From NCBI RefSeq assembly GCF_001687605.2, contig NZ_CP016539.2, positions 2,882,501 to 2,946,500 of the forward strand: DNA of 64,000 bases, in the 5' to 3' direction. The notes under the pieces are model-generated. The model ran no database searches and was not told where the DNA came from. It saw only the letters and a program-made list of their open reading frames with translations. Origin of the DNA: Planococcus plakortidis. GTDB lineage: Bacteria; Bacillota; Bacilli; Bacillales_A; Planococcaceae. The position numbers were made by a program, and so were the translations under genes. Below are positions 43,626-61,233 of the stretch, one piece after another (the stretch's first letter is position 1; each line of letters opens with the position of its first letter).

Positions 43626-43674
43626 GCCAACCCCGCATAACCCGGATCGTTTTATCCTGGAATCCTAACTAATA

Positions 43675-43715: not shown

Positions 43716-43745
43716 GGATAGAAACATGGTGAAAAGATTTGCTTA

Positions 43746-45164: not shown

Positions 45165-45576
45165 TGTTACTTCCCCTCTCGTACTTTAACTCTTATTTCT
45201 TTATGTATAGGTCAGTACTACATCATTTAAAATTCGCGCTAAAATATATCGTTTTATAATCAGTTGTCTTCCAGGACTCACCAGTCATTTCAAAACACTT
45301 TATTATCCTAGAAACCCGATTTTAAAATCCAACTGTACCAGTGTATCATGGTGCTCTTTTACATTTGTTACAGGAACCTTGCAATTTCGTTTTTAATTCA
45401 AGGTATTTCCCAGTGCAGAATCTCAGCTTTTTTATTCATTTTTTTCTGTAAGTACCAATCGATGCTCCTAATTAGGAGATAACGGAATCAAATAAAGATG
45501 CTTGGATATATAACATACCCAAGCATCTTGAACGATTCTAAAGCCACTATGACCGTATTGAATTTTTAAGGAGGAA
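45165..45576. other. Intergenic region with the terminator of the GH13-like gene
   Basis: No gene recognised. It contains the promoter zone of the M23-like gene and, at 45494-45529, a terminator. Confidence 0.5.
45494..45529 (-). terminator. Terminator of the GH13-like gene
   Basis: AAGATGCTTGG pairs with CCAAGCATCTT around a 13-14-nt AT loop; TTTATTT follows on the minus strand. Confidence 0.8.
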
Positions 45577-47022: not shown

Positions 47023-47327
47023 ACAATTTTCCTCCTCAAAAATACCAAACTCGTTTTCAGATTCGGTTCAGTGTAACAAATATCAATTTTCTCTTCTATA
47101 TAAAATCAAATACTTCATAAACTCTGCTTAAAGTTTTATCGATCCTGTGAATATTTAAGCTTACTTGGATGAAGCTTCAGTAGGTTAAGCTATTAGTACA
47201 CTTTATTCTGTAATTAAGGAGGCAATAGGTATTGATTTTCTCGAAACATGTATTACAGTTAAACAGGATATTAACAATGGTCCAAAAATAAAATATCGCT
47301 CTTTCAATAATTCTAAGGAGGAATATC
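47023..47327. other. Intergenic region
   Basis: AT-rich DNA between divergent genes. An AAGGAGG at 47216 precedes no usable frame. No repeat or RNA recognised. Confidence 0.4.
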
Positions 47328-47558
47328 ATGCTCTCTTCAAATAAAAAGCCACAAGATAAATCGACGACTTTTGGATTTCTATTTTACTTTATAGCCTTGC
47401 TCGGCTGGTCTATTTATGACTTTTTTGTCACGGGTACCACTGGATGGCAAGTACCGATTCTATTCCTTGGGTTTGCCATCTATTTATGGTCAAAAGTGTT
47501 TTATCAGCAACGAAAAATAAGAGAGACAGTAAAAGAGTCCGAGTTGAAACTCAAGTGA
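47328..47558 (+). CDS. Small two-helix membrane protein
   Basis: A 76-aa protein with two transmembrane helices (FGFLFYFIALLGWSIYDFF and VPILFLGFAIYLWSKVFY) and a basic C-terminus (RKIRETVKESELKLK). The AAGGAGGAATATC site right before ATG 47328 and its own terminator support it. No function recognised. It lies between the GH13-like protein and the CDF genes but is transcribed alone. Confidence 0.7.
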   Translation: MLSSNKKPQDKSTTFGFLFYFIALLGWSIYDFFVTGTTGWQVPILFLGFAIYLWSKVFYQQRKIRETVKESELKLK

Positions 47559-47574
47559 ATGATAAGGGAACAAT

Positions 47575-47609
47575 AAAAAAGAGCGACGGGCTTTCCGTCG
47601 CTCTTTTTT
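47575..47609 (+). terminator. Terminator of the small membrane protein gene
   Basis: GAGCGACGG and CCGTCGCTC with A6 and T7 flanks; it can work in both directions. Confidence 0.85.
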
Positions 47610-47667
47610 ATCAAAATATTTTTGAACACTCTATTCCAAGCACTTTCAAATGAAGTATCTGCAAAAG

Positions 47668-48597
47668 CTAACGGGAGTCTTCTAAATCCTTCAAATCCCC
47701 ATGAATAGACTCTATATGAGGATGGTCTTGTGATTCCAATTGAATTGTTATATGGGTAATTTGTTGTTTTATCATTGCAGCCTCAATTTCTCTTAATATG
47801 AGTTGGCTTTCTTCGAAAGAAAGGCCATTCTCTATCACCACATGGCCCGATAATGCGTTTTTTCCGCTAGTGATGCTCCAGACATGCAAATCGTGTATAT
47901 TATTTACTCCTGGGATTTTTTCAATTGTATCTGTTATGCGATCGATACTTACATCTGTCGGAGTCCCTTCCATCAATACATGAATAGCTTCCTTTGTGAC
48001 ACGCCAACCACTTATTAAAACAAGTATGGCCACAACGACACTAGCTAAAGGATCGGCCCATGCCCAGCCGAAAAAGATTATTAGCAATGCGGCTGTTATA
48101 GCTCCTACAGAACCCAACAAATCACTCAGTACATGTAGGAAGGCGGCTCGGAGATTCAAATTGTCCTTAGTATCTCCGCCTCTGGTCAAAATCCAGGCAA
48201 CCAATATATTTACTAATAGACCGATAATGGCAATAATCAACATGCCTGTTGTAGCGACTTCTGGCGGATCAGAAAACCGATGGTAGGCCTCGTAAAAAAT
48301 GTAAAGTGAGATTAACACCAACGTTACTCCATTGAAGACGGCAGCTAAGATTTCAAACCTCTTGTAACCATAAGTCTTAGCTTGATCCGCTGCCTTTTCC
48401 CCAATTGTAAAAGCTAAAAAACCAATTCCTAAGGAAATCGAATCGCTCAACATATGTCCAGCATCCGCGATCAATGCCAGGCTATTTGTCAGAAAGCCGC
48501 CAATCGCTTCTACAACCATATAAACCGTAATAATCAAAAAAGAAATTAATAAGGTTTTTTTATTGCGTCCATGTGCGTGGTCATGGTCACTTCCCAT
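47668..48597 (-). CDS. Cation diffusion facilitator (CzcD/ZitB type)
   Basis: A 309-aa CDF metal exporter with six helices. The His-rich N-terminus (SDHDHAHGRN), the transport-site motifs ALIADAGHMLSD (HxxxD, helix 2) and FLHVLSDLLGSVG (helix 5), and a cytosolic ferredoxin-like domain with VHVLMEGTP and NIHDLHVWSIT are visible. CDF proteins exchange Zn(II), Cd(II) or Co(II) for protons. It is paired with a second, more divergent CDF gene just upstream on the same strand. The start is ATG 48597 behind GGGAGGTG. Confidence 0.9.
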   Translation of the reverse strand: MGSDHDHAHGRNKKTLLISFLIITVYMVVEAIGGFLTNSLALIADAGHMLSDSISLGIGFLAFTIGEKAADQAKTYGYKRFEILAAVFNGVTLVLISLYIFYEAYHRFSDPPEVATTGMLIIAIIGLLVNILVAWILTRGGDTKDNLNLRAAFLHVLSDLLGSVGAITAALLIIFFGWAWADPLASVVVAILVLISGWRVTKEAIHVLMEGTPTDVSIDRITDTIEKIPGVNNIHDLHVWSITSGKNALSGHVVIENGLSFEESQLILREIEAAMIKQQITHITIQLESQDHPHIESIHGDLKDLEDSR

Positions 48598-48676
48598 TTA
48601 CGACACCTCCCTTATTGGACATCTTTACAAAAGTAAAATTGATCAACTGGTTATTCCCATGACGGGACCTTGGCAA

Positions 48677-49525
48677 TCACTGAGTCTTCCAGTCCATTTC
48701 AATTGTGGAGTGAATGATTTGAAGATCCGAAATTGTACTCCGGACCTTTTCCTTAATTGCAGTTGAATCTGCCAAGTTTTCGCCTGTGACCGACAGGCAC
48801 ACATTCATCGCATGCTCCTCCCCATCAATTGACCATATATGCAGATCCTTTACTGAAAGCACCCCAGGAATTTTCTCAATTCTTGAATGGACTTCATCCA
48901 AATCGATCTCCTGAGGTACACCTTCAAGCAAGATTTTCATGGTTTTCGATAAATTCCGAAAGACATTGAACAGTATAAATAAAGCAATGGCAATCGATAA
49001 AATGGGATCAAGTATATGGATGTCTTTGAACAACAAAACGATACCTACTATTAGTACGGCAACCCAACCTAGGACGTCTTCTAACAGATGCCAAGTAAGC
49101 ACGCCTTCATTTACTGACTTGCCTTTATGTAGCCTGTATGCCGCAAATCCATTTAACAACACACCGGCAATTGCAAACCAAACCATTCCTTGGGCATTGG
49201 AGTGCTCGGGGTTGAATAGAAGAGGTATGGCTTGAAAGAAAATATAAACAGAACCCGCAATTAAAATGAGTGCATTAATCAAAGCTCCCAGCAGCGAAAA
49301 ACGCTTGTAACCGAAACTGAACTTTTGGTCGCCTTCCTTCTTCGAGAATTTTTGCAGAAACCAAGAAAGCCCCAATGCTGTTGCATCCCCCAAGTCATGT
49401 ACAGCGTCAGACATAATAGCCACGCTATTAATTAAGAAGCCCCCAATGAATTCACCTATAGAAAAAAGCAAGTTGATGAAAAAAGCCAACTTGATATTTT
49501 TCTCATCCTTATGAGCTGTTGCCAT
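48677..49525 (-). CDS. Cation diffusion facilitator, second paralogue
   Basis: A 282-aa CDF-family exporter. Transport-site motifs are SDAVHDLGDATALG (helix 2) and WHLLEDVLGWVAV (helix 5). The C-terminal domain carries EGVPQEIDLDEVHSRIEKIP and VKDLHIWSIDGEEH. Compared with the neighbour, it lacks the N-terminal His cluster and has Asp to His changes that may shift metal preference. GGAGGAG precedes ATG 49525; an in-frame ATG at 49585 is less likely. It may be co-transcribed with the following CDF gene (79-nt gap). Confidence 0.88.
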   Translation of the reverse strand: MATAHKDEKNIKLAFFINLLFSIGEFIGGFLINSVAIMSDAVHDLGDATALGLSWFLQKFSKKEGDQKFSFGYKRFSLLGALINALILIAGSVYIFFQAIPLLFNPEHSNAQGMVWFAIAGVLLNGFAAYRLHKGKSVNEGVLTWHLLEDVLGWVAVLIVGIVLLFKDIHILDPILSIAIALFILFNVFRNLSKTMKILLEGVPQEIDLDEVHSRIEKIPGVLSVKDLHIWSIDGEEHAMNVCLSVTGENLADSTAIKEKVRSTISDLQIIHSTIEMDWKTQ

Positions 49526-49825
49526 CTGTTCTCCTCCTTTCTCAATACAGTTAAATAAAAAATGACGTACAAATTTTGATTTCACCCAAGGCTTAACTCA
49601 CTCCATGTCACTGAGTAGTTTATATATTCCCCAAAGCTCATGAAATACACCTTGGTAAATGATAGGCGCAATTTCCATAATTGCTTATGAAGAAGAGTTT
49701 CGGCAAGCAGGAAATTAAGGAAGAGATAAAGAATGTGACAGAGAAAAAGGAATGTCAAACTCCTTTTCATCTGTTCTATCCTTGCCTATACCAAATATGG
49801 ACATTCTAACTGGGAGGTAGAGAGA

Positions 49826-50443
49826 GTGAACAATGCTTGGAATAAAATAATGTATAGGATTTGGTCGCCTATCTATGATCAGATCTTCAATACTGGGCCT
49901 TTCTTAGAAGCCAGGAAGAAAGTTTTCCAAGATGTGAAGTTTGAAAAGCACTCAAATCTATTATTTGTAGGAGTGGGGACAGGAGCCGACTTGGAGTTAT
50001 TCAATCCTCAACACTTTACTATTACCGCGATTGACTTATCTCTCGACATGTTAGAAAAGGCGCGCAAAAAATATCCTGATTCTGCTATTAGTTTTTTAGA
50101 AATGGATGCTCAAAAACTGGATTTTGATGACGATCAGTTTGATTTTGTCATTGCCAGCTTGATACTTTCTGTTGTACCTGATCCGAATAGTTGTTTGCGA
50201 GAAATGACACGCGTACTTAAAAATGGTGGGGAACTCATTATTTTCGATAAATTTTCTTCAATTGAAACAAGCTCTTCAGTTCGACGAAGACTAGCCAGGC
50301 CTTTCGTCAAAATACTTGGGACCGATATCGCCTTGAATTTTGAAGCCTTGTTCGAAGAAAACAAATATTATCTAAAGCTCATAGACAAAAGCCCTGTTAT
50401 GTTTAACGGTTTTTATACTAAAATCCGCCTCAGAAAAGATTAA
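49826..50443 (+). CDS. Class I SAM-dependent methyltransferase
   Basis: A 205-aa methyltransferase with motif I LLFVGVGTGADLELF, the acidic motif II in ITAIDLSLDML, FLEMDAQKLDF and the post-motif LKNGGELIIFDKF. The N-terminus (YRIWSPIYDQIFN) resembles UbiE/phospholipid methyltransferases. The substrate is unknown; nearby metal-resistance genes leave open a role in metalloid methylation, but no arsenite-type Cys pattern is present. The start is GTG 49826 behind GGGAGGTAGAG. Single gene followed by a VanZ-like gene 93 nt downstream. Confidence 0.82.
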   Translation: MNNAWNKIMYRIWSPIYDQIFNTGPFLEARKKVFQDVKFEKHSNLLFVGVGTGADLELFNPQHFTITAIDLSLDMLEKARKKYPDSAISFLEMDAQKLDFDDDQFDFVIASLILSVVPDPNSCLREMTRVLKNGGELIIFDKFSSIETSSSVRRRLARPFVKILGTDIALNFEALFEENKYYLKLIDKSPVMFNGFYTKIRLRKD

Positions 50444-50536
50444 ATACTTTAATTGATCCCTTTTGTCTTTGTCTTATTCAAAACCTTTTCGAAAATTTAG
50501 TTGGGTTTCTACTTAAACTAAGAAAGGACAGTGTCG

Positions 50537-50965
50537 ATGCGATTCCCTCTCTTTTTAATAATTCTATGGGCATCAGTGATTTTAGCGGTGATGTCCACAA
50601 GCGATGCATATGCTTTTTTAGTTGATCAAGTTGTAGAATATCAGATAAACTTGCAGCCTAATTTTCTTGAATTACTGAAATTTAGTGACGTTGCTTTCAA
50701 TGATGCTTTTTACTTAGCACAAAAAACTGGCCATTTGTTATCCTTTGGGATTCTATATATTTTAATGTTCATTTGGCTAAAGCAAACTTTCTATTCCTGG
50801 TTTTTATGCACATCGTTTGCCTTTTTCTCAGAAGTTTTTCAGTTGTTTTTCGATAGAAACGGTAGGCTCTTTGATGTGGGCATCGATTTAATTGGTATTT
50901 TTCTAGCCCATCACCTGATTATCAGAGTTCTCAACTTTAAAAATGAATTCAGCAAAAATGGCTAG
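50537..50965 (+). CDS. VanZ-like membrane protein
   Basis: A 142-aa protein of the VanZ family with four helices. The characteristic KTGHLLSFGILYILMFIWL and the C-terminal FAFFSEVFQLFFDRNGRLFD and VGIDLIGIFLAHHL are visible. VanZ proteins are small membrane proteins, in some cases lowering teicoplanin susceptibility; most have no known role. ATG 50537 is preferred behind AAAGGA; a GTG at 50531 is possible. Same strand as the methyltransferase, possibly co-transcribed. Confidence 0.75.
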   Translation: MRFPLFLIILWASVILAVMSTSDAYAFLVDQVVEYQINLQPNFLELLKFSDVAFNDAFYLAQKTGHLLSFGILYILMFIWLKQTFYSWFLCTSFAFFSEVFQLFFDRNGRLFDVGIDLIGIFLAHHLIIRVLNFKNEFSKNG

Positions 50966-51023
50966 GAGACGATGCTTTTCTAGCTAACCGCAATAATCCG
51001 TACTGAGAAGAATAAAACAAGTC

Positions 51024-51311
51024 TCAAGTTCTCCATAGCCCAATAATGCCTTTTCTACGGTATATAATCTGATGGCATTCAAGAATTTTTAATATCTTAG
51101 TAAGTCGATAAGTCGACAAATTCAAATCCTTCTCTACCTCTTTAGTATTTTTGACTAGCACTCCGTAGGAAGTAGAATTCCTCAAAAAATACGTTATAAA
51201 TCTAAGTCCACTACTCAGTGTTTCTTTCTTCTCTTCTGCTAAGCATTTCCTGACTTCTTTTATGACCCTAGTTTCTAAATTCGAAAAAGAAAACTCATTT
51301 TTATTTTTCAC
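51024..51311 (-). CDS. Small winged-helix-like protein, possibly replication-related
   Basis: A 95-aa protein with an N-terminal charged helix and a C-terminal helix-turn-helix pattern (VEKDLNLSTYRLTKILKILE) ending in RRKGIIGLWRT, a wing-like segment. It resembles the DNA-binding half of RepL-type or other small plasmid replication/regulatory proteins, but the similarity is by eye only. There is no membrane segment. The ATG at 51311 follows AAGGAG. It may be a remnant of an integrated plasmid, or a regulator of unknown target. Confidence 0.5.
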   Translation of the reverse strand: MKNKNEFSFSNLETRVIKEVRKCLAEEKKETLSSGLRFITYFLRNSTSYGVLVKNTKEVEKDLNLSTYRLTKILKILECHQIIYRRKGIIGLWRT

Positions 51312-51663
51312 TAATAAATCTCCTTACTTTTTATATTTCGAAACTAAACCAATAGATTAAGCTATTACTTTAATAGGATATACTAACACCCACACACTTA
51401 TTTACATTCAATAAAGTTAATCTATTAACTAACTTCATATAAAAATGTTCGATGAAAAAAGAAGCGATGATTGAGCCAAGGAAACGGAAATCACACATGC
51501 TATACTTGTTTGACTCTTGCTTTTGGTAACTTTTAAGACTCCCATCAGTTAATCAAACACAAAGCTAATTGCTTCATAGGCAGTATAAATAATTTAAGGA
51601 CTTCAAACTAATCAGGTAAACGCCGAAAAGATATACAAGCTCCAAATGATAAATCGACCATAA
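51312..51663. other. AT-rich intergenic DNA
   Basis: No supported gene. It contains long A/T runs and short frames without ribosome-binding sites. Confidence 0.4.
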
Positions 51664-51858
51664 GTAAAATATGTAGTTTCGGAGTTTAGTGACAAGCACA
51701 GCATATACAATAATATATTTATTGAAAAGGGAAGAATACAAGATTTTTTCCAGCAAATAGATTATAGAAAATACATTCAACATTATTACGACCCTGGAGT
51801 CGTTCAGCCATCCGTTCGTAAAGTCAAGATAGCTCTAAATGAATACATCTCTAATTAA
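51664..51858 (+). pseudogene. Start-less 64-codon protein remnant, unknown family
   Basis: An open segment without ATG, GTG or TTG start near its 5' end. It encodes a plausible globular tail (SEFSDKHSIYNNIFIEKG, then KYIQHYYDPGVVQPSVRKVK, then a closing helix) before TAA at 51856-51858. Directly upstream in frame is a stop. It is probably the C-terminal remnant of a degraded gene. The family was not recognised. Confidence 0.3.
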
Positions 51859-51914
51859 CGCGCTGCTTTATGAATCAAGTTACCATACAAGTTTTCAAAA
51901 GAAGCTGATATATG

Positions 51915-51952
51915 AAGCTCATGGAGAAGTGAGCTTTACTTAGCTTTTTTTA
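51915..51952 (+). terminator. Possible terminator upstream of the ZIP gene
   Basis: AAGCTC (51915-51920) and GAGCTT (51931-51936) form a short stem, followed within 8 nt by a T7 run. It would end transcription through the remnant at 51664-51858. Confidence 0.4.
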
Positions 51953-52045
51953 TTGGATTTAATTAACTGAACCGAAATTTCTGACTGAAAACAAAACAAA
52001 GAATCAAGTTTTTAGAAATATATTTTTCATAGGAGGAAAATTAGA

Positions 52046-52861
52046 ATGATAGAGTTATTTAAAGATCTAGATCCGGTTGTTCAAGCATTTATTGGCACGT
52101 TATTTACATGGGGCATGACGGCACTAGGGGCGGCGTTAGTATTTACTACAAAAGGCGTCAATCAACGTTTCCTGGATAGCATGCTCGGGTTTGCTGGAGG
52201 GGTAATGATTGCGGCAAGTTATTGGTCGCTTCTTGCTCCTGCCATTGATATGGGGGAAGGTGGTTCCTTTCCAGCTTGGATGCCTGCAGCCATCGGATTT
52301 TTACTGGGTGGCATATTTTTATGGTCAATAGATAAAGTCCTCCCTCACCTTCATCCAAATGCATCCTTAGAAAAAGCTGAGGGATTCCACTCAGCTAAAA
52401 GAAAGAAGAGTTCTTTGCTTGTATTTGCCATTACACTCCACAATATTCCGGAAGGGCTAGCAATCGGCGTTGCGTTCGGAGCTGTGGCTGCAGGATTTCC
52501 GTCGGCCTCTCTAACAGGTGCAATTGCTTTGGCAATCGGCATCGGTATCCAGAACTTCCCAGAAGGCCTAGCTGTCTCCATGCCTCTTCGACGCGATGGA
52601 TTTTCGCGGCGAAAAAGCTTTCTTTACGGTCAATTCTCTGGAATGGTTGAACCAGTCGCCGCCATCATCGGTGCGCTGGCAGTGGTGTTTATCGAACCTT
52701 TACTGCCTTATGCATTGAGCTTAGCAGCAGGTGCAATGATTTTTGTAGTCGTCGAAGAAGTAATTCCAAGCTCCCAAGAAAAAGGAAACTCTGATTTGGC
52801 TTCGATGAGTTTAATGGTTGGGTTTACAATTATGATGATCCTTGATGTCGCCCTCGGCTAA
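52046..52861 (+). CDS. ZIP-family metal transporter
   Basis: A 271-aa protein with eight helices and the ZIP binuclear-site motifs [12 protein letters not shown] (helix 4) and [13 protein letters not shown] (helix 5); His in LPHLHPNA lies in the cytosolic loop. The GufA/ZupT-like subfamily imports Zn(II), Fe(II) or other divalent ions. An importer within a metal-efflux island suggests balance of zinc under cadmium stress, or an export mode, but direction cannot be inferred. GGAGG precedes ATG 52046. Single gene. Confidence 0.88.
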
Positions 52862-52906
52862 TTTCAAGTAAGCTTTGACCCTTGGCCTGTGAAACGGATA
52901 TCCTAT

Positions 52907-53869
52907 TTAGCTTTCTCCTATATTTCCTCTCCTTGTAGAAAGCAACAACTGAGAGACGAGTGCTAGAATGGGCAATTCGATCAACGGACCGATAACTAAG
53001 GCCAAGGCGATTAAAGGCTGATACGGAAAGGCGACAACTGCAATGGCCAATGAAACAGGCGAATTACGTGCGATAGTCGTCAGGCTTAAGCTCACCGTAT
53101 CTTCATAGGAAAACTTTAGGGCTTTCCCTACTGTTTGCGCCAAAATAAAATTAACAACAAAGAACAATAAAACAGGCAGCAGCAAGGTTGAAATGACTTC
53201 AAGATTAGTGAGTAGGTACTTCCCTTGCGAAGCAAACATCGCCATAATCGCCAAAGATAAAAAGAAAATCTGTGCCGTAGCAAAAAAAGGGACGAGTTTC
53301 TCATTCAAGAAGGCTTTCCTCTTCCGCAGAGCATAGCGCGTCAAATGCGCCAGGACAAATGGAATAATCAGTACCAGGATGATGCTTTCGGTAAGGGTCA
53401 ACAATGGTATTGGCTCAATCGTGCCAGCGAAAATGAATAGGTAAACCGGCAACAGCACGACCTGCAGAATCAAATTAATCGGCAAAACGGACATGGATAA
53501 GGGTACATTCCCTTTCGCAATGGCAGTGAACATCAGGTACCAGTCTGTACAAGGTGTCACCATCAGCATGATAAACCCAATCCACAGGGCTGGATGATCC
53601 GCAAGGAAGATTGCCCCAAGTCCCCAGGCCACTAAAGGCGTCCAGACAAAATTGGTAAGCATGCTGACAGTGAAAAAATTGCGATTTTTAAAAGCATCCT
53701 TCAGGTGCTGCAATGGAGTGATTAAAAATAATCCATACAGCATCAGCAATAAAAATGGCACGATGAAGGATTCTGCATATTGTTCATAAAAGTGGACCTG
53801 CCCCATCAATAGACCGATCCCCACTGCTGTCAAAATAATGATGGTTTGAAACTTCTCAACTATATTCAT
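52907..53869 (-). CDS. ACR3/BASS-family transporter (arsenite or organic anion type)
   Basis: A 320-aa protein with ten predicted helices. The segment MLMVTPCTDWYLMFTAIAKG carries the conserved membrane Cys of ACR3-type arsenite permeases, and TTIARNSPVSLAIAVVAFP is the second family motif. It belongs to the bile acid:sodium symporter superfamily, and arsenite export is plausible in this neighbourhood. No arsR or arsC gene is adjacent, so the call is provisional. The start is ATG 53869, 8 nt behind AAGGAG; the upstream frame is not coding. Confidence 0.75.
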   Translation of the reverse strand: MNIVEKFQTIIILTAVGIGLLMGQVHFYEQYAESFIVPFLLLMLYGLFLITPLQHLKDAFKNRNFFTVSMLTNFVWTPLVAWGLGAIFLADHPALWIGFIMLMVTPCTDWYLMFTAIAKGNVPLSMSVLPINLILQVVLLPVYLFIFAGTIEPIPLLTLTESIILVLIIPFVLAHLTRYALRKRKAFLNEKLVPFFATAQIFFLSLAIMAMFASQGKYLLTNLEVISTLLLPVLLFFVVNFILAQTVGKALKFSYEDTVSLSLTTIARNSPVSLAIAVVAFPYQPLIALALVIGPLIELPILALVSQLLLSTRRGNIGES

Positions 53870-54290
53870 GAAAAAACTCCTTTTATAATAGAAAGAACGT
53901 GCGCTCGATCGATTATTCTTTAAAAGCATAACGGAAGTGCTACCCTATTAATCTTGAGTTTGAATCCGAACGGAGGAAAAGTATCCAGAGTGCTTTTAAA
54001 GAAGTCTGGGAATCTCCCCTTCACTCCTTGCATTAAGCTCGAAGCGATAAATCCAAGGGATCACTAAGAAATCTGCTTAATACATTACTGCTATAAGATT
54101 AGAAGTATGAAACAATGACATCGCACAGTTCACTGAAAAACTCAAAACTGTGGAAGGAAAGAAAAATTGTTGCAAATAACATCTTATTTCCTTTCTGTTT
54201 ATACAGCCTCAGATAAATATAATGATATGCAAACTTTAACTCTGATTACCTAGAAGTTTAAGTTATGGGAAAAATATAGTTGAACAGATT
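53870..54290. other. Intergenic region upstream of the ACR3-like gene
   Basis: No gene recognised. The DNA is not obviously repetitive. It includes the promoter of the ACR3-like gene, which I could not define. Confidence 0.4.
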
Positions 54291-54323
54291 AAAGCGCCTG
54301 AAGATTAAACGGTTAGGCGCTTT
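54291..54323 (-). terminator. Terminator of the decayed resA copy
   Basis: AAAGCGCCT pairs with AGGCGCTTT across an AT loop, on the side downstream of the resA remnant. Confidence 0.6.
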
Positions 54324-54359
54324 GCAATGTAAATTAATTCGTAGGTGTCCATCTTTTTC

Positions 54360-54620
54360 TCAAAGACCTGTCGTGTTGTTTTGTTTCATAAAGCTTTGAA
54401 TATCTTCCTCAAACATTTTCCCGGCGACGATTTTCTCTATGTTTCCATCCGTATTCACCAGAAGAGTTGCCCCTCACCTCAACTGGTTGCTATTATAGAT
54501 TTTTATGACTCTCTTGTTCTTGTCAATGACAATGAAGAACATCAAATCGCGCAGTTCTGAGCATTTTTTTACTTCAAACTCTAGGTGAGCAATATTGACG
54601 GTGAAATAGCAGAATTTGAT
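54360..54620 (-). pseudogene. Degraded ResA-like thiol-disulfide oxidoreductase
   Basis: The minus-strand translation in one frame gives VNIAHLEFEVKKCSELRDL, FIVIDKNKRVIKIYN, an internal stop, then TLLVNTDGNIEKIVAGKMFE and EDIQSFMKQNN. This aligns in order with the C-terminal half of the intact ResA at 37524-38066 (VNIAQSDYEVK, IVIDKNKSVMEAYN, TTMLINPDGDIVKIITGEMS, EEDIRRYM). The active-site CxxC half is absent. It diverges from cadD, just as the cop-resA operon diverges from cadC, pointing to a duplicated and then decayed arrangement. Confidence 0.8.
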
Positions 54621-54678
54621 CTTCAATGTGATATTTTCCTTCGTTCTCTTTTCATTTGAAGAAATATGCTAAAACACT

Positions 54679-54753
54679 AAAACGACCGCTTGAATATATA
54701 ATTGACAAGCTATCGGTATATTCATACACTTAGATAATCAAACTTTCGTTTGA
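54679..54753 (+). promoter_or_regulatory. cadD promoter and CadC-type operator
   Basis: TTGACA (54702-54707), 17 nt, TACACT (54725-54730), then TCAAACTTTCGTTTGA (54738-54753). The upstream block AAAACGACCGCTTGAATAT matches that before cadC almost base for base. CadC is the likely regulator, acting in trans. Confidence 0.7.
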
Positions 54754-54808
54754 ATGTCTAAGTATTAGAATTGTAATAGGGAGCACTATATTCACAAAGG
54801 AGTTGGTA

Positions 54809-55426
54809 ATGCTGATAGGTACGATTTTCACCGCGGTTGCCGCTTATGCTGCGACCAGTATTGATTATGTTATCATTTTGCTGATTCTTTTTTCACAAAC
54901 GTTGAAAAAAGGTCAGTTAAAATCCATTGTCATCGGCCAGTATCTAGGAACTGCCATTTTGGTAGGCGTCAGCCTTTTAGCTGCGTACGGTCTAACGCTT
55001 GTGCCCCCTCACTTGGTGGGCTTATTGGGTCTCATCCCCATTTATCTAGGTATTCGCATTTGGAAGCGAGAAGAAGACGAGAACAACGAAGAGAATATCC
55101 TCTCCCGTTTGTCTTCCGGAAACCCCAATCGCTTGTTTATCACCATCACCGCCATTACTCTGGCGGCCGGCGGCGATAACCTCGGTGTTTACATACCGTA
55201 TTTTTCCACTCTGAATCCAAGCGAAACCATTGTAATGCTGATCGTCTTTGCCATCCTAGTTGCCGTCTTGTGTTATCTCAGTTACCAGTTAGCATCCGTT
55301 AAAAAGGTTTCGAAAACGATCGAGAAGTGGGAGCGCTGGATTGTACCGATTATCTTCATTGGATTGGGTCTTATGATTCTGCTGGAGAATGAAACCTTCC
55401 ATTTTCTTTGGGGTTTGGTAATCTAA
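54809..55426 (+). CDS. cadD: CadD-family cadmium resistance transporter
   Basis: A 205-aa membrane protein with about five helices. CadD signatures include AAYAATSIDYVIILLILFSQ near the start, the acidic loop KREEDENNEENI, and ITLAAGGDNLGVYIPYFSTL in the middle. Its length matches the staphylococcal CadD/CadX-associated transporters (about 205-209 aa). ATG 54809 is 7 nt behind AAAGGAG. Its promoter carries the same operator as cadCA, so it is likely CadC-regulated although cadA lies more than 10 kb away. It may be the functional cadmium exporter if cadA is truly broken. Confidence 0.88.
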   Translation: MLIGTIFTAVAAYAATSIDYVIILLILFSQTLKKGQLKSIVIGQYLGTAILVGVSLLAAYGLTLVPPHLVGLLGLIPIYLGIRIWKREEDENNEENILSRLSSGNPNRLFITITAITLAAGGDNLGVYIPYFSTLNPSETIVMLIVFAILVAVLCYLSYQLASVKKVSKTIEKWERWIVPIIFIGLGLMILLENETFHFLWGLVI

Positions 55427-55580
55427 AGTGATTCTTAAATTGAACTGCAAATGGTAATTTTAAAAGTTATCTCCATTTGATTAATTCTTTGGTAACCACA
55501 GTGCTTGTTTTTATTTAGTTCGCTAATTTTTTTATACACTTGTTTTTCGATTGTTCGTAAAAAAGGCACTTTACCGAATA

Positions 55581-55606
55581 AAAAAAGAAGAAGCTGAAGC
55601 TTCTTC
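55581..55606 (-). terminator. Minus-strand terminator
   Basis: GAAGAAGC and GCTTCTTC around TGAA; T6 on the minus strand. Likely for the 55798-56244 gene. Confidence 0.65.
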
Positions 55607-55696
55607 CGATAAGGGGTCATATGTAAATGTTAATGACGCCTGATTTTGTCTATGCCTCGACGCACTAGTAAAAGTACTGGCTAGCCGATAATCATT

Positions 55697-55740
55697 AAGG
55701 CAAGAAGAATCGCTAGAATTAGCTTCTTCTTGCCTTTTTT
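55697..55740 (+). terminator. Plus-strand terminator
   Basis: AAGGCAAGAAGAA pairs with TTCTTCTTGCCTT and is followed by T4 on the plus strand. It may end the cadD transcript. Confidence 0.7.
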
Positions 55741-55797
55741 CTTTGTACAGCTTCCGATAACCTCATGATATGTAAACTATAGAGTGAAAACGCGTTA

Positions 55798-56244
55798 TTA
55801 AGGAGTAATTTCGAAAATCCTGCCAGTGTCTGGTATAAAGAGAAGTGAGGTATGCTCCTCTTCAACTGACGGAACGGTCCCCAAGAAAGCGTATCCCCAA
55901 TTAGGGGCAAAGGGATTCCAGGCTTCATTCCGATCGAGTGGTAAATTTTCCTGGATGGTCAGCTCCATATCTAAGCCATAAGTAACCAAAATTTGTTCTT
56001 GGGCTTGCTGATGAGTGTATTTTGGTAGCGAAAAGATGATGGATACCCCCACCATTAGGACAAAAAAGAAGTAGACTCCATATCTTTTCTCGGGTATAAG
56101 ATATCTGTAAATCATGACATGAAGCGTTAAGAGAGTGATGGGAGCACTTAAAGGCATCACATTGTGGTAAAATTGCGTATTTACACTCAAAAGAAGAATA
56201 AAAACAACCGCAGATAAAATAAGACCAATCCTATATTCTCTCAA
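55798..56244 (-). CDS. Membrane protein of unknown function
   Basis: About 148 aa: an N-terminal helix (GLILSAVVFILLLSV), a second (LSAPITLLTLHVMIY), a third (VYFFFVLMVGVSIIFSL) and a soluble C-terminal domain (NAWNPFAPNWGYAFLG-like, ending IPDTGRIFEITP). Not recognised. A TTG at 56244 is preferred because GGAGG lies 9 nt upstream; the frame stays open to 56355 without a site, so a longer form is possible. It is the last of four small minus-strand genes in the palindrome-bounded stretch. Confidence 0.55.
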   Translation of the reverse strand: MREYRIGLILSAVVFILLLSVNTQFYHNVMPLSAPITLLTLHVMIYRYLIPEKRYGVYFFFVLMVGVSIIFSLPKYTHQQAQEQILVTYGLDMELTIQENLPLDRNEAWNPFAPNWGYAFLGTVPSVEEEHTSLLFIPDTGRIFEITP

Positions 56245-56431
56245 AATCTTCAGCCTCCGCCTACTTGTTGCGAATATGACTTTTTCTAAATTAATTGTGT
56301 GTTTTTGGCAAATGGAAACGAGCAGGCATATCGCAATGAAATACCAGTAAAACAAAGACTTTTAATGTATCATTTTTTCTAGAAAGTTTACTTTTCTAGA
56401 TCTATTAATTAAGTCAATAAAATAATAAATT

Positions 56432-56465
56432 TGAATGTAACTTAATTAGGATTAAGTTACATTCA
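56432..56465. repeat. 34-bp palindrome, copy 1
   Basis: TGAATGTAACTTAAT, TAGG, ATTAAGTTACATTCA: perfect 15-bp arms. It lies 40 nt beyond the stop of the DUF3885 gene. No T run, so not a standard terminator. Confidence 0.9.
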
Positions 56466-56505
56466 GATCAAAGCAATAGCATATTATTTTCTTGGACCTA
56501 ACTGG

Positions 56506-57174
56506 TTACGCAAACAACTGTTTCATATCTTCACGGTTATATTCATAGAGCCAATCAGAATATTTTTCATACAACGGGCGCAATGTCTCTTTATCAGCTG
56601 CAATCACTTCACACCCTCGATCATCGTAAATAAAGAAGATCGCATTCTTGGTGAGGTTGATGAAAAATGTATCAGGATAATACATCCCCTTTTCTCTTCT
56701 AAATTTAGGCTTCAAGGGAAAATCTTCGTTACAGGCAGCCTGGATCAGCTGATGGTAGCGTAAATCATTTTTCCTGCATTTCAAATGATACTGCGCAGTG
56801 TAGTAGTCTTCTGCTTCTTCTTCCTCATCGAAAACATAGGGCAGTGTGTTTAGCTTTAGTTGTAAAGCCAATTTTTTATTTTTGACGCCATTTTTATATA
56901 CCTTGAACGGTTTTGTTCTTCCGTTGGCATTTTTTCGGTGGTAGACATTCGTTACTAAAACCAATTCATCCTCTTTAGAAAAAAGGTCATTGAAGATTGC
57001 CAAGGTTTGCTTATATGCATTTTCAAACCGGTGCAGATTCAGTTTGTCCCCTTCTTCAAACTGATAGATCCCTAATCCCAGTTCGAAATGAATGCCAGTT
57101 TTCCATTGAAGATAAAGGCTTGGTTTTAAAGCCAGCCCAGGAAAAGTAGTATGTAAATACTCTTGTAGCTCCAT
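56506..57174 (-). CDS. DUF3885 domain-containing protein
   Basis: A 222-aa soluble protein with the DUF3885 pattern: FPGLALKPSLYLQWKTGIHF at the start, FENAYKQTLAIFNDLF, and the C-terminal FFIYDDRGCEVIAADKETLR-PLYEKYSDWLYEY. Function of the family is unknown. The start ATG 57174 follows AAAAGGAG at a long spacing; a GTG at 57234 lies inside the neighbouring palindrome and is rejected. It fills the interval between palindromes 1 and 2, with about 40 nt on each side. Confidence 0.8.
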   Translation of the reverse strand: MELQEYLHTTFPGLALKPSLYLQWKTGIHFELGLGIYQFEEGDKLNLHRFENAYKQTLAIFNDLFSKEDELVLVTNVYHRKNANGRTKPFKVYKNGVKNKKLALQLKLNTLPYVFDEEEEAEDYYTAQYHLKCRKNDLRYHQLIQAACNEDFPLKPKFRREKGMYYPDTFFINLTKNAIFFIYDDRGCEVIAADKETLRPLYEKYSDWLYEYNREDMKQLFA

Positions 57175-57215
57175 TAATTTTTTTGCTCCTTTTTTGAAAA
57201 GAAATTCCTTAAAAC

Positions 57216-57249
57216 TGAATGTAACTGAATTCACATTAAGTTACATTCA
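57216..57249. repeat. 34-bp palindrome, copy 2
   Basis: TGAATGTAACTGAAT, TCAC, ATTAAGTTACATTCA: 15-bp arms with one mismatch. It lies 41 nt upstream of the DUF3885 start and 55 nt beyond the stop of the 81-aa gene. Confidence 0.9.
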
Positions 57250-57304
57250 AAATCGATGTTTTTAGATGACTTGAAGATTATAAAAAAATTGTATTTCAAG
57301 GAAT

Positions 57305-57550
57305 TTATGAGTTTGAATCATCAAATGCAGCATATACTTTATATTTATTTTCCGCATTTTCATCCTTGGTATATACTCTGCAGTTTTCGATGGCAGCTAA
57401 TCTGAAAGCTAAAGCATAAGCTATTTTATAGTCAGGAGTACTATAACTATCATAAAGCCTTCCGTACATTTCATTTGCAATTGAATCAGCCCATACATCA
57501 GCTTCACGCATCGTATCGAATATGATTTCCTCTTCTTTGCATCTACTCAT
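57305..57550 (-). CDS. Protein of unknown function, 81 aa
   Basis: A small acidic helical protein (EEEIIFDTMREADVWADSIA, YKIAYALAFRLAAIE, ending NKYKVYAAFDDSNS). Not recognised. GGAGATGAAAATGCG precedes ATG 57550. It occupies the interval between palindromes 2 and 3, repeating the one-gene-per-interval layout. There is no membrane segment. It could be an immunity-type or antitoxin-type protein, but that is only a guess from size and charge. Confidence 0.55.
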   Translation of the reverse strand: MSRCKEEEIIFDTMREADVWADSIANEMYGRLYDSYSTPDYKIAYALAFRLAAIENCRVYTKDENAENKYKVYAAFDDSNS

Positions 57551-57615
57551 CGCATTTTCATCTCCAGTATGAAAATTTATCTTACCGTGTGCCTCTCTTA
57601 GTTACTTGCTTGATC

Positions 57616-57649
57616 TGAATGTAACTTATCTGCACTTAAGTTACATTCA
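57616..57649. repeat. 34-bp palindrome, copy 3
   Basis: TGAATGTAACTTA, TCTGCACT, TAAGTTACATTCA: perfect 13-bp arms around an 8-bp centre. It lies 66 nt upstream of the 81-aa gene. Confidence 0.9.
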
Positions 57650-57805
57650 CTTCCAAACATTCTCTACATTTAGATTAACATTAATTCCCATAATATATAG
57701 ATGAGATGATCAGTATTGCTTTCTCGAAGAAAAGTGTTTGAAAAAGTACATCTATACTAAAGAGGAGAAAAAATGTGATAGTGTTCGCATCTTCTCTTCA
57801 TCCTT

Positions 57806-57964
57806 TTAATTTTCACTCTTCTCTCTGATTTCCATAATAATTAGGGCAAGTGTGCTTATAAGAGCTATTACATACATAATTGTTTTACTCGTTTCTCCCC
57901 AAGTATCTATGGCAGCAATAGTAATTACTAATATTAAAAAAATATACCTTAAATACATTTTCAT
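57806..57964 (-). CDS. Small membrane protein, 52 aa
   Basis: A short gene with two hydrophobic helices (YLRYIFLILVITIAAIDTW and TIMYVIALISTLALIIM) and a charged end (EIREKSEN). AAGGGG lies 9-10 nt before ATG 57964. The tidy helix pattern and ribosome-binding site support it despite the size. Unknown function; it lies between palindrome 3 and the res-like repeats. Confidence 0.5.
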   Translation of the reverse strand: MKMYLRYIFLILVITIAAIDTWGETSKTIMYVIALISTLALIIMEIREKSEN

Positions 57965-58082
57965 ATTCTAAGTCCCCTTAATGAGAGAAATTTTGTCTAG
58001 TTAACGTAAGACTATAGTTGAACCTCTTAGTTTAATATACTCAAATTCCAAATGAATAGATAGATAATTCTGGAAGTAAAAC

Positions 58083-58205
58083 CGTTCGTAAAAGTACACT
58101 TTTACGAACGCTTTGGTAAGCACTTAAAAGTACAAAAAAGAGCGTTCGCAAAGGTGTCTACACCATTACCGAACGTTCTAACATTAACTTATACTTTTAC
58201 GAACT
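58083..58205. repeat. Cluster of inverted repeats resembling a resolvase res site
   Basis: Site A at 58083-58110 is CGTTCGTAAAAGT, AC, ACTTTTACGAACG (28 bp, 13-bp arms, 2-bp centre). Site B at 58143-58175 starts CGTTCGCAAAGGT and ends CCGAACG (33 bp, imperfect). Site C runs to 58204 with GTTC at its left and ACTTTTACGAAC at its right. A-B centres are about 63 bp apart. One 28-bp core with a dinucleotide centre plus two longer, weaker sites is the layout of serine-resolvase res sites; a resolvase is encoded at 60670-61233. Iterons or operators are alternatives. Confidence 0.55.
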
Positions 58206-58304
58206 GTTTTTTATACATTCTATATAGTAGAAACTCACTTATATTATCCTTATATCGAACTTCAATCGCAATCGGAATGTGAGAGATACACTAATTAACA
58301 GCAC

Positions 58305-59591
58305 CTAAATAATTTTCTTATTATATAAATACTGAAAAACAGTCGTAAGTAATGAGAGGCAGCGTTTATAAAAGTATTCATAATGTCTATCGTCACTAAT
58401 ATCTACTTTAGTAGTTTCATGATGCCGGATTCTAAAGTTATTTCCGATGACAGTAAGATCATTAAACTCTTTCTTAAACATTTCTATAAAATGCTCTTTT
58501 TCACCACTTATCTCGCTAATAATTTTATTTGCTGACTTTTTCTTGTCCAATTGTGGAGAATAATAAGTTTTTAATCTTTCAAAAGCATCCCAAAGTTTTT
58601 CAGTTGCGATTCTAAAGTTTTCTTTTTCATAATATCTATGTGCTTCTTCGAGCAACTCTTGGAGTCCAACTTCATCAATTAGATTGTAAGAAGTCTTTAC
58701 AAAAGGCCCTTCTAGCTTGGTTTCAATTTTTCCATTATTCAACTTCAAAGAAAAATCATTTAATTCAAAAATCAAATTAATTTCTTTCATAAAACTATCA
58801 TTATTATTTCTATCAAAAAATTCTACTACATCAATTACACAATGAGGAGAAGTGGATAAGACAAAATCTTCTAAACTGTTGGTTTCTACATAATTATTTT
58901 CCTTGAAGCACTTTGGTATATAAAACTTTCTTATTTCATTAAAGAAGCTTTCACTTAGTAATTCATTATATTGATAACCTTCGACACTTTTCCTTTCGGA
59001 ATAATCGTATTGCAATAGTAAATGATGAATTTTCCTTCTTACTTCTTTCTGAATTTTAAGAGGCAATTGTTTTTGTTTTATTGTTTTTTTATATCTTTCA
59101 GAAAAGGGAATAAATATTTCATTTTCTTGTTTATATAATTTCCAATCGTATATATCGCGGTTAGATATTTGATCAATTACATAAAGTTCATATCCATCAT
59201 ATTTTAATAATTTATTTATTTCATTAAGGAATTCTTTCCAATATCCCCCTTCATATCGTACGGCTGGATGAAATATTTCACAAATGAATTTTAAGTAATT
59301 TCTGTCGTCACCATTCATTAGTTGGAATCGATCATCTTCAAATACCCAACAATCTGTGTAATCATCATTGTTTTTTGTGTGCTGCCAAATATCTTCTTCA
59401 GCGTTTGAATACCTAGGGTCCTCACTTATCATGTCTTCCAAGTTGTATATTCTTTTAAGGAAATCTATTTCATCCAGTTCTCCATGATAAGGATAAGTAA
59501 CTTTTTTAGGATCCCATAATTCTACTATTTCCATTCCGTTTTTAAACATTTTCTGAATATCACGTTTTGTTATTTCGCTAATTCGATTCAC
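58305..59591 (-). CDS. AbiJ-like abortive-infection protein (NTD4-type N-terminus, HEPN-like C-terminus)
   Basis: A 428-aa protein. The N-terminus (about 1-140) matches the AbiJ N-terminal domain 4 pattern: ISEITKRDIQKMF, PYHGELDEIDFLKRIYNLED, EEDIWQHTKNNDDY and WVFEDDRFQLMNGDDRNYLK-FICEIFHPAVR. The C-terminus (about 310-428) is helical, with LLEEAHRYYEKENFRIATEK and GNNFRIRHHETTK, an R-x-R-H-H stretch like the HEPN RNase motif. It likely triggers growth arrest or RNA cleavage on phage infection. It is last in a minus-strand unit after the zinc-ribbon HEPN gene and resolvase. GTG 59591 is the start; its ribosome-binding site is weak. Low-GC, foreign-looking. Confidence 0.75.
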   Translation of the reverse strand: MNRISEITKRDIQKMFKNGMEIVELWDPKKVTYPYHGELDEIDFLKRIYNLEDMISEDPRYSNAEEDIWQHTKNNDDYTDCWVFEDDRFQLMNGDDRNYLKFICEIFHPAVRYEGGYWKEFLNEINKLLKYDGYELYVIDQISNRDIYDWKLYKQENEIFIPFSERYKKTIKQKQLPLKIQKEVRRKIHHLLLQYDYSERKSVEGYQYNELLSESFFNEIRKFYIPKCFKENNYVETNSLEDFVLSTSPHCVIDVVEFFDRNNNDSFMKEINLIFELNDFSLKLNNGKIETKLEGPFVKTSYNLIDEVGLQELLEEAHRYYEKENFRIATEKLWDAFERLKTYYSPQLDKKKSANKIISEISGEKEHFIEMFKKEFNDLTVIGNNFRIRHHETTKVDISDDRHYEYFYKRCLSLLTTVFQYLYNKKII

Positions 59592-59681
59592 AATCTATAA
59601 TCAGTCTCCATTCTTATTTTTCATAAAGAACCTCAATTGTAATTTTATTAAAATAAGGCATTTAATTTTCATGCTCAAAAT

Positions 59682-60650
59682 TTAATTCAAGTTTAGATTT
59701 GTTGTTTTATGGATTCCTTCTGATAATTTCTTTATTACCTTTAAAAGTTTTATCACATATTCTTTTTTAGAAACTAGTCTTTGACCTACTCTATATGTAG
59801 TATCATTTGACTTATTCAAATACATATCATCAACCATGCCATTATTATGTTCTAAAAGATGTCTTCTTTGAAACATCAAATTTAAAAAGTCAATTTCTTC
59901 ATTTGTGAGCCATTCCTCATAACTTACCTCATAGTAATCTCTAAACAAGTTACTACCTTTATAGACAATTTGAAAATCATTCGGTCTTACTGTTTTTTTG
60001 CAATTTTTTTTAAAGCTCTCAAAAGCAAACTTTTGAAATGCGGAAATGATTTCCTTCAAACTAGTCTCGATAATATTCTGAACCATATTTGTCGAAGTAT
60101 CTTTATTATATATTTCTTGAAGAATTCCTTGCATCTCATCTAATGAATTAAGTTGATTTTCAATCCTACCTATAGATTCATTAAATACCCGATCTACAGA
60201 ATTATGGCCGCAACATGGACAAAAATATGCTGTACCTATAACACTTGTTTTGGTTTCGCACTGTTCACAAGTAATTATAAGCTCCCATTCTTCAAGTTGA
60301 CCAATCGGATTGTTTTGGAATGAAATTCTTTTTCCTGGTTTATATTTAATATTTACATACTTATTTGAATTTCTTGAAATCTTTTTAAAAGACTCGTGTA
60401 TAGTCTTCTGAACTTCATTGATTGCCCACTGTCTAGCTATATCCCTCATACTATCAAGCTGACCTTGCGTCCACCAAGAATCGGAAGGTGCTGTATGTCC
60501 ACAACGAGGACAATATACTTTTTCATCAGAAACTTTATTTTTCCAATCTAAAATGTAAATTTTGAAAACGAATTCACATTCTTCGTGCGGACATTCTCTA
60601 TCAAAATAACCTTTTTCATCAGAAACAACTTCAATAGGAATTTCCATCTC
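59682..60650 (-). CDS. Zinc-ribbon HEPN-domain protein
   Basis: A 322-aa protein. Two zinc ribbons are at the N-terminus (CPHEEC…CPRCGH, about 20-55) and middle (CEQCET…CPCCGH, about 130-155). A helical C-terminal domain carries RRHLLEHNNGMVDDMY, in which R-x4-H is the catalytic motif of HEPN ribonucleases. Proteins of this type are candidate RNA-targeting toxins or defence effectors. AGGAGG precedes ATG 60650, 19 nt after the resolvase stop, so it is coupled to the resolvase gene. The AbiJ-like gene follows 90 nt downstream. The partner or trigger is not known. Confidence 0.72.
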   Translation of the reverse strand, partial: EMEIPIEVVSDEKGYFDRECPHEECEFVFKIYILDWKNKVSDEKVYCPRCGHTAPSDSWWTQGQLDSMRDIARQWAINEVQKTIHESFKKISRNSNKYVNIKYKPGKRISFQNNPIGQLEEWELIITCEQCETKTSVIGTAYFCPCCGHNSVDRVFNESIGRIENQLNSLDEMQGILQEIYNKDTSTNMVQNIIETSLKEIISAFQKFAFESFKKNCKKTVRPNDFQIVYKGSNLFRDYYEVSYEEWLTNEEIDFLNLMFQRRHLLEHNNGMVDDMYLNKSNDTTYRVGQRLVSKKEYVIKLLKVIKKLSEGIHKTTNLNLN

Positions 60651-60669
60651 CAGCCTCCTTTTGGTAAAA

Positions 60670-61233
60670 CTATATATTTTCAATTTTTTCTTTTTTCAGT
60701 TCCCTGTATAATGTTGCTGCAGAAATACCTGTTGCTTCTTGTATTTCTTTAACACTCATTCTTTTCGAATGGTAAAGGGCAGTTGCTTGATTTAACTTCT
60801 GCTGATTGACTTTTGGTCTTCCTCCCCTTCTCCCTCTTGCACGCGCGGCTTTCAATCCAGCCATCGTTCGTTCACGAATAATATCCCTTTCAAATTCAGC
60901 TAATACCGATAGCATTCCAAACATCGCTTTTCCTGCAGCCGTCCCTGTATCGATATTGTCTTGGATGCTGACGAACTCTACTCCTTTTTCTCGAAGTAGT
61001 TCTGCAATTTCAATCAATCGCTTTGTGGATCTTGCTAATCTATCTAACTTGTAAACTACGAACTTGTCACCAGCTCGTGACATCTTAATTGCTTGTAACA
61101 ATTCAGGGCGATCATCTTTTGCTCCAGATAGTTTCTCCTGGAAAATCTCTTCGCAGCCAAATTCTTTTAAAGCATCCAACTGCAAATTCAGAGATTGATC
61201 AATCGTACTGACTCGAGCATATCCTATAATCAT
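60670..61233 (-). CDS. Serine recombinase, resolvase/invertase family
   Basis: A 187-aa site-specific recombinase. Catalytic Ser9 is in GYARVSTIDQ, with the supporting Arg residues in FVVYKLDRLARSTKRL, the E-helix in KAMFGMLSVLAEFERDIIRE and a C-terminal helix-turn-helix MSVKEIQEATGISAATLYRE. This is the normal length of Tn3-type resolvases and plasmid resolvases. A -10 TATAAT lies at 61272-61267. It is the first gene of the resolvase-HEPN-AbiJ unit. Possible target sites are the repeats at 58083-58205 or AT-rich repeats near 61270-61330. It may move, resolve or regulate the defence cassette. Confidence 0.92.
   Translation of the reverse strand: MIIGYARVSTIDQSLNLQLDALKEFGCEEIFQEKLSGAKDDRPELLQAIKMSRAGDKFVVYKLDRLARSTKRLIEIAELLREKGVEFVSIQDNIDTGTAAGKAMFGMLSVLAEFERDIIRERTMAGLKAARARGRRGGRPKVNQQKLNQATALYHSKRMSVKEIQEATGISAATLYRELKKEKIENI

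Follow-up and report, generated by a model that had tools for sequence, protein, structure and literature searches.

Ordered palindromic sites bound small-gene cassettes in Planococcus and are probable core sites of a plasmid-encoded Xer-like recombinase

Introduction

To our knowledge, gene-cassette platforms are known mainly from Gram-negative bacteria, as integrons and Acinetobacter dif modules. Integrons have a recombinase gene at one end of the array. Their small cassettes lie mostly in one direction, and arrays lacking a recombinase exist. In engineered recombinase-mediated cassette exchange, which uses heterospecific lox or FRT sites, different spacers separate the slots. A double exchange then swaps the intervening DNA.

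The pdif modules of Acinetobacter, as presented in PMC13141974, are small genes between sites with a variable 6-bp spacer and are moved by XerC and XerD. Recombination is documented to need identical or nearly identical 6-bp spacers. The same text offers single-module exchange, via a cointegrate and its resolution, as a proposal, and describes toxin–antitoxin modules as abundant.

Site-specific cassette modules are already known. Here, we describe a distinct variant from Planococcus, in which the arms are identical and inverted, the sites share one orientation, the cores are ordered and a minimal recombinase is linked to the arrays. Among the papers listed by searches of the open-access PMC literature, we found no description of these arrays. 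In a term search, PMC13209848, a Planococcus paper that names plasmid pPCZ1, gave no mention of a recombinase, palindrome or inverted repeat.

Results

Three palindromes delimit two single-gene intervals

The window is a 64,000-nucleotide stretch of the Planococcus plakortidis genome (contig NZ_CP016539.2, positions 2,882,501 to 2,946,500). An earlier note on this DNA described three 34-bp palindromes with one small gene in each interval. It preferred to read them as tyrosine-recombinase core sites between cassettes, with operators of one regulator as the alternative. We scanned the window for TGAATGTAACTTA-N8-TAAGTTACATTCA, allowing up to three mismatches, and used 100 dinucleotide shuffles as a control. 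Exactly three matches were found, where the shuffles predict 0, and their coordinates agree with those in the note. All three lie in an array read on the minus strand. In gene direction the order is D, C, x, according to the core classes defined below.

The first site, of type D, is at 57616–57649 with the gene-direction centre AGTGCAGA. The second, of type C, is at 57216–57249; its centre is ATGTGAAT and one arm has a mismatch. The last site, at 56432–56465, has the centre ATCCTAAT and belongs to the variable class. Cassette 1 fills the D-C slot (57250–57615, minus strand) and was assigned from its open reading frame (ORF) and by cassette comparison. It contains an 81-aa ORF at 57305–57550 for which no Pfam match was found. 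Cassette 2 fills the C-x slot (56466–57215, minus strand). It carries a DUF3885 gene at 56509–57174, counted from its ATG (Pfam E 2.4e-55), and was also matched by cassette comparison. Each gene is separated from the site on either side by about 40–65 nt, as first described. The 13-8-13 geometry given for the palindromes stands in that the 13-bp arms are identical, but the unit comparable with other systems is 11-6-11. This unit, ATGTAACTTAn-N6-nTAAGTTACAT, is a 6-bp core with one loose base on either side.

A tail follows the last site (56363–56431, minus strand). Sequence comparison places its extra half-site, AGAAAAAATGATACATTA, at an offset of 51 bp from that site. Next is a 185-aa gene (55798–56355, minus strand), 68% identical over 148 aa to a gene of plasmid pPCZ2. 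Beyond this, on the plus strand at 55751–55778, is a second-tier, dif-like site, CTTCCGATAAC-CTCATG-ATATGTAAACT, where near-identity to two other replicons stops.

Each window palindrome would fold as RNA into a stable stem (−12.8 to −15.6 kcal/mol), and a simple terminator scan scored one of the three as terminator-like. An Rfam search of window positions 55000–58500 found nothing at the palindromes and only sub-threshold L20-leader matches near 55573–55746. The stretch at 58007–58210 is a repeat region with hairpin-forming GTTCGTAAAAGT motifs; stretches 76–78% similar occur at L207, L208, L145 and L146 (L-numbers are locus labels of the sequence stretches analysed).

The sites recur throughout the genus

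The window's own genome is a single 3.26-Mb contig. Allowing up to two mismatches, it contains 11 sites, in four clusters. A reversed control pattern gave 0. The four clusters share a succession of centres in gene direction, from the D core GTGCAG to the C core TGTGAA, the latter being TGTAAA in one cluster. The last core is TCCTAA in three of the four. Type B (core TAGCAA), common elsewhere, is absent from this genome.

Sites were matched in 45 of 46 Planococcus genomes, the window's own included, some having only one or two; the reversed control gave one match each in 5 of the 46. A smaller first sample had matches in 35 of 36 genomes of the genus, again counting the window's own. Among other genomes of the family, 5 of 215 contained a match, versus 13 for the reversed control. 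Four of those five had a single match, which is chance level, and one displayed match has two mismatches. The fifth had five matches, with small-contig coordinates equal to those on a Planococcus lenghuensis plasmid. Among the matches listed (at least 118 stretches), 77 of the 80 named contigs with a site belong to Planococcus or Planomicrobium. A PLSDB search with the 34-mer matched 32 records. Twenty-two Planococcus records and one from Lysinibacillus matched at full length; the remaining nine were partial and probably due to chance. A viral contig (L155) and a metagenome-assembled match (L100) were rejected as members, having no recombinase or tail in the available stretch and looking like chance. 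A Gracilibacillus contig (L047) and a plasmid record labelled Stutzerimonas (L088) carry Planococcus-type sites, through transfer or mixed cultures, and L088 also has a tail and a dif-like site. The earlier note had suggested looking for the palindrome between different small genes in related genomes and plasmids. It recurs there in many, and the boundaries of like cassettes coincide exactly with the sites.

Cores within arrays are distinct and ordered

We sampled 157 arrays, as delimited here, in 141 loci. These are 118 from the named scan (matches listed), 15 Planococcus plasmid records, the window, three stretches of its own genome, L186–L188 and L195. The arrays, and the cassette pairs below, are not independent samples, and a few plasmids are near-duplicates.

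The arrays contain 260 distinct cassette intervals (median 494 bp). With duplicates counted, there are 274 intervals; 226 hold a single non-overlapping ORF of at least 50 aa, whereas 15 hold none. The ORF runs in the direction of the array in 220 of 300 cases. The sites are not tied to one gene set. The 300 ORFs fall into 178 families, and 126 representatives matched 78 Pfam families, including GNAT, NUDIX, ParE-like toxin, SUKH and many DUFs (25 displayed).

Read in gene direction, the first site has a AGTGCAGT-like centre (D), the second is ATGTGAAT-like (C), the third TTAGCAAT-like (B) and the last variable (x). Two or more of D, C and B are present in 90 arrays, which give 164 pairs concordant with the order D, C, B and one discordant. 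This sole reversed pair is in L120, perhaps two abutting arrays. In arrays that run from D to a tail (n = 55, last site excluded), C occupies position 2 in 40 of 45 and B occupies position 3 in 19 of 27. The cores next to the tail are of 27 kinds. The same 6-bp core occurred twice within an array in only 3 of 506 pairs, versus a mean of 69.7 and a minimum of 46 in 2000 shuffles. The differing centres had been counted against recombinase sites in the earlier note; with 164 concordant pairs against 1, and cores so rarely repeated, they prove to be ordered. Sites of classes D, C and B lie along the array in 259 cases and inverted in 3, a partly circular count because array orientation was set by majority. 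Neighbouring sites were alike in orientation in 212 cases and unlike or unclassifiable in 23. At their upstream end, 12 of 20 recombinase-bearing arrays have a stop codon 21 bp before D; in 11 it closes a MerR-like gene. The MerR-like protein of L055 is just under the Pfam cut-off.

A small tyrosine recombinase is linked to many arrays

Of the 157 arrays, 91 have a conserved tail beyond the last site; its extra half-site lies at a distance of 49–53 bp in all 91 and of 52 bp in 82. The other 66 have no recognised tail, and room was too short in only 10 of them; others are probably explained by decay, stray single sites and array delimitation. By eye, the plasmid tail (TTGACT, about 17 nt, then an AT-rich −10) has the look of a recombinase promoter plus operator. 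This is poor in the window, where the −35/−10 spacing is 21 nt and the tail is absent from the promoter-scan listing; its promoter may have decayed.

Downstream of 41 of the 157 arrays, in the same direction, is a gene for a 187-aa tyrosine recombinase (38 loci, with one gene counted twice and near-duplicate plasmids included). The distance from the last site is 202–207 bp in 18 arrays and 355–1141 bp in 20, the latter usually with a small gene in between. For 116 of 157 arrays, no recombinase was found within 4 kb downstream. The only Pfam match of the protein is PF00589 (residues 31–175 of 187, E 2.7e-21). Judged by this match, the recombinase is a bare catalytic domain. R47, K71, H135, R138, H161 and Y170 are invariant in 40 sequences, down to 49% identity; we presume their catalytic roles from what is generally known of the family. 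An enzyme with the conserved R-K-H-R-H-Y set is therefore linked to the palindrome. The best solved relatives are XerC-like and XerA proteins, at low similarity (E 1.4e-7 and 3.3e-6).

In a 60-genome sample, the recombinase was present in 14 of 35 other genomes of the genus. There were 31 copies with 88–98% identity, all in the first 22 kb of their contigs and one with an internal stop. Further copies had 67% (one) and 43–44% (two). PLSDB has the recombinase on 15 Planococcus plasmids. The 81-kb plasmid pFN9D of Lysinibacillus capsici (L187) has six places that match the recombinase, the best with 95.7% identity. Within its first 33.6 kb, the stretch covered here, there are tandem units of about 13.5 kb, which have annotated resistance genes outside the array region.

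The window's own genome gave no recombinase match at E 1e-25. Hence, its arrays would either depend on visiting plasmids or be relics. The pPCZ2 homologue of the 185-aa gene sits between tail and recombinase. This match makes the window array resemble a plasmid array whose recombinase end is gone and which now ends at the dif-like site.

Cassettes are shared between arrays and bounded by the sites

Cassettes were counted as a shared pair at 90% or greater identity over at least 90% of their length. Flanks were called unrelated when ungapped identity over 100 bp outside each site was below 0.6. Among the 260 distinct cassettes we found 55 shared pairs (90–99.8% identity). The DNA was unrelated on both sides in 46 of the 53 pairs with measurable flanks; for the other 7, similarity persists on one or both flanks. 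For instance, the D-C cassettes of L049 and L128 are 99.8% identical, and outside the sites identity is only 16% and 28%. Twelve of the 55 pairs connect a recombinase-bearing array with one that ends in a dif-like site.

Both window cassettes take part. The 81-aa cassette has a 96.0% identical copy in the D-C slot of L128, and the DUF3885 cassette has 92.4–92.7% identical copies in the C-x slots of L070 and L106. All three arrays bear a recombinase, and in L070 and L106 the DUF3885 cassette neighbours a gene other than that in the window. This bears out the idea, raised at the outset, that small genes are reassorted. As far as these comparisons go, cassettes move as units between sites.

Shared cassettes mostly occupy like slots. 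In 48 clean pairs, with x treated as a class, the left class was the same in 32 (mean 13.1 and maximum 26 in 2000 shuffles) and the right class in 38 (mean 17.7, maximum 30). Where both members were D, C or B, among all 55 pairs, agreement was 37 of 41 for the left class and 28 of 29 for the right. One left class was kept in only 17 of 27 transferred families. L104 and L217, L053 and L213, and L056 compared with L207 and L102, have cassettes that are 91.5–95.9% identical in different slots. A strict lock of each cassette to one slot was rejected; it holds mostly, and the exceptions are real. We also rejected an integron-like cassette carrying its own site, since near-identical cassettes have different downstream cores (98–99% identity in L055/L061 and L121/L137). 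The loose bases beside the core were tested for travelling with the cassette, as a guide to crossover location, and gave no clear signal.

A second, dif-like site family ends other arrays

We searched the 3 kb after each array for the 28-bp pattern CTTCCGATAAC-N6-ATATGTAAACT, with up to five mismatches. Such a site follows 32 arrays and has the same orientation each time; no array with a recombinase within that range also has one. Recombinase plasmids with a dif-like site elsewhere are L052, L054, L213, L216 and L221. Another 25 tailed arrays have neither in range. The window's genome has five dif-like sites at up to three mismatches, versus one for the control. They lie at window positions 55751–55778 and at 827594, 1617250, 1620350 and 3072959. 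At sites of this 28-bp family, stretches of DNA that are unrelated apart from the site meet in a clean junction, and some loci have two successive sites on either side of a gene. They may be a Gram-positive version of XerCD modules, nested together with the cassette arrays. The same genome has a candidate dif at 1686959, with two mismatches to what we take to be the dif sequence of Bacillus subtilis.

Window positions 36846–55779 (18.9 kb), a region with metal-resistance genes, are 99.97% identical to a plasmid of Planococcus maritimus XJ11 (L207). The stretch 51710–55781 is 98.5% identical to contig L097. On one side of the dif-like site the three replicons are alike; on the other they are unlike and have different cassettes. 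Beyond the site, the only sequences common to the window and L207 are those of the sites, a 128-bp repeat stretch (77%) and a serine-recombinase region (85%). Because the three replicons diverge at the dif-like site, the window island appears to be the product of joining at another type of site, possibly by XerCD. Here the 36846–55779 region is part of a 3.26-Mb contig; either one strain would hold an integrated plasmid region or the other a free one. At window positions 58308–61233, immediately beyond the D end of the array, genes match AbiJ_NTD3/PDC-S32, PDC-M14A and a serine recombinase. In the P. maritimus plasmid this place is occupied by different genes, followed by a related serine recombinase; it may be a defence-gene hotspot.

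Distant recombinases adjoin palindromes with other arms

Related recombinases occur in 821 PLSDB records at E 1e-20. We searched up to 700 bp upstream of 13 distant ones for an 11-6-11 palindrome with 10 or 11 of 11 arm matches. Five have one, versus 45 of 2600 shuffled regions, with arms unlike the Planococcus sequence. For three of the five (Bacillus velezensis, Peribacillus frigoritolerans and B. subtilis), a second copy of the right arm follows about 63 bp later, after promoter-like DNA. The other eight gave no palindrome passing this strict test; in Rummeliibacillus and P. lenghuensis, which failed it, imperfect sites are visible by eye. Three Bacillus and Peribacillus plasmids (L189, L190 and L222) have palindrome, promoter-like DNA, repeated right arm and recombinase in succession, possibly a general resolution system with autoregulation. 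Because distant palindromes precede promoter-like DNA and a right-arm repeat, the layout points to plasmid resolution in which the half-site serves autoregulation. Compared with multimer resolution in Bacillaceae plasmids, as judged from these homologues, the Planococcus layout is the same as in 3 of the 13, but no cassette array was seen at those loci. The Planococcus system probably arose from plasmid multimer resolution, with one site, promoter and half-site, then the recombinase gene.

Discussion

The arrays, the order of their cores, the avoidance of repeated cores, site-bounded cassette sharing and recombinase linkage are all seen directly in the sequences. We put at roughly 80% the probability that the palindromes belong to a plasmid-encoded Xer-like recombinase as its core sites and have become a platform for exchanging cassettes, as the site-bounded sharing and the recombinase beside many plasmid arrays suggest. 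The earlier note had preferred cassettes between tyrosine-recombinase core sites, a reading that this supports. The core site of the small tyrosine recombinase would comprise 11-bp inverted arms and a 6-bp core. In Planococcus this site would have multiplied, with small genes held between the copies as cassettes. Identical cores would undergo strand exchange, and unlike cores rarely or never. Two replicons with D and C in common could then fuse at one and resolve at the other, so that the D-C cassette is swapped slot for slot. Because neighbouring cores differ, an array should not excise itself, and events between matching cores should leave its order D-C-B-x unchanged. Rare mismatched events would be expected to cause deletions, seen as skipped slots (C to x, D to x). 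On plasmids, D is tied to the MerR-like gene and x to the recombinase, and arrays without a recombinase, such as that of the window, would be served in trans. We infer from sequence comparison the action of the recombinase on the palindromes, the requirement for core identity and the cointegrate route. That the cores serve as slot addresses, being ordered, mutually non-recombining and read by the plasmid recombinase for slot-for-slot swaps across the genus while array order stays fixed, is a reading that we favour by a small margin over its negation.

Like integrons, the arrays have mostly co-oriented cassettes, a recombinase gene adjoining one end (41 of 157) and recombinase-less members. The enzyme is not of the IntI type (32.3 bits against NCBIfam integrase_gron, versus a cut-off of 265). 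The sites are near-perfect inverted repeats with identical arms, and core type follows slot position, unlike an attC that travels with its cassette. Engineered lox or FRT exchange has the same slot logic; the Planococcus version looks natural and has three or more ordered site types. The pdif modules, as described in PMC13141974, are like the Planococcus arrays in their small genes, variable 6-bp centre and sequence-inferred exchange between sites. They differ in having distinct XerC and XerD arms, modules that alternate in orientation and chromosomal enzymes. The Planococcus arms are reverse complements of each other, nearly all classed sites point one way, a recombinase gene adjoins many arrays and the cores have a fixed order. 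Because defining tests of both failed, we file the Planococcus system under neither integrons nor XerCD dif modules.

The main competitor, which we consider unlikely, has host chromosomal XerC and XerD moving the cassettes, as in the Acinetobacter modules, and the plasmid recombinase only resolving plasmid multimers. The arm does resemble an XerD half-site (TTAAGTTACAT versus TTATGTTAAAT; with T as the loose base, 9 of 11 positions agree), given what we take to be the E. coli XerD arm. The same arm is printed in PMC13141974. A 6-bp core would suit these enzymes too, as would the 116 arrays without a recombinase nearby. Both arms, however, are one inverted sequence, hence there is no distinct XerC arm, and the window's genome has a candidate dif and a second dif-like family with different arms. 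The fixed spacing between palindrome and recombinase, and the same layout beside other-armed palindromes for some distant recombinases, further argue for the plasmid enzyme.

Less probable still is that core order reflects history only. An ancestral D-C-B array would have spread, with cassettes changed by homologous recombination or decay and cores having no sorting role. A common ancestor is likely anyway, and the stop codon found 21 bp before D in many recombinase-bearing arrays fits one. Yet near-intact shared cassettes with unrelated DNA beyond both sites are not readily produced by homologous recombination with 34-bp anchors. Repeated cores are also strongly avoided within arrays, though fixed slot types alone would do likewise. 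Operators of one regulator, or transcription hairpins between genes, are very improbable. The stable RNA stems, the one terminator-like site and the mostly uniform ORF direction fit this account, which predicts neither ordered, distinct cores, nor site-bounded sharing, nor a recombinase at fixed spacing. The operator alternative in the earlier note fails on the sharing, and a generic repeat was set aside along with the operator and terminator readings. A side role of the palindromes in expression is possible.

Taken as cassette-exchange sites of a plasmid recombinase, with cores as addresses, the arrays would be a natural counterpart of engineered heterospecific cassette exchange, plasmids and recombinase-free arrays included. 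Naturally orthogonal cores would be a ready toolkit for multi-slot cassette exchange. How an array exchanges genes yet keeps its order becomes testable. Planococcus, through a genus-wide system that pairs ordered cores with a minimal recombinase of its own, would have solved separately the problem that integrons and dif modules solve.
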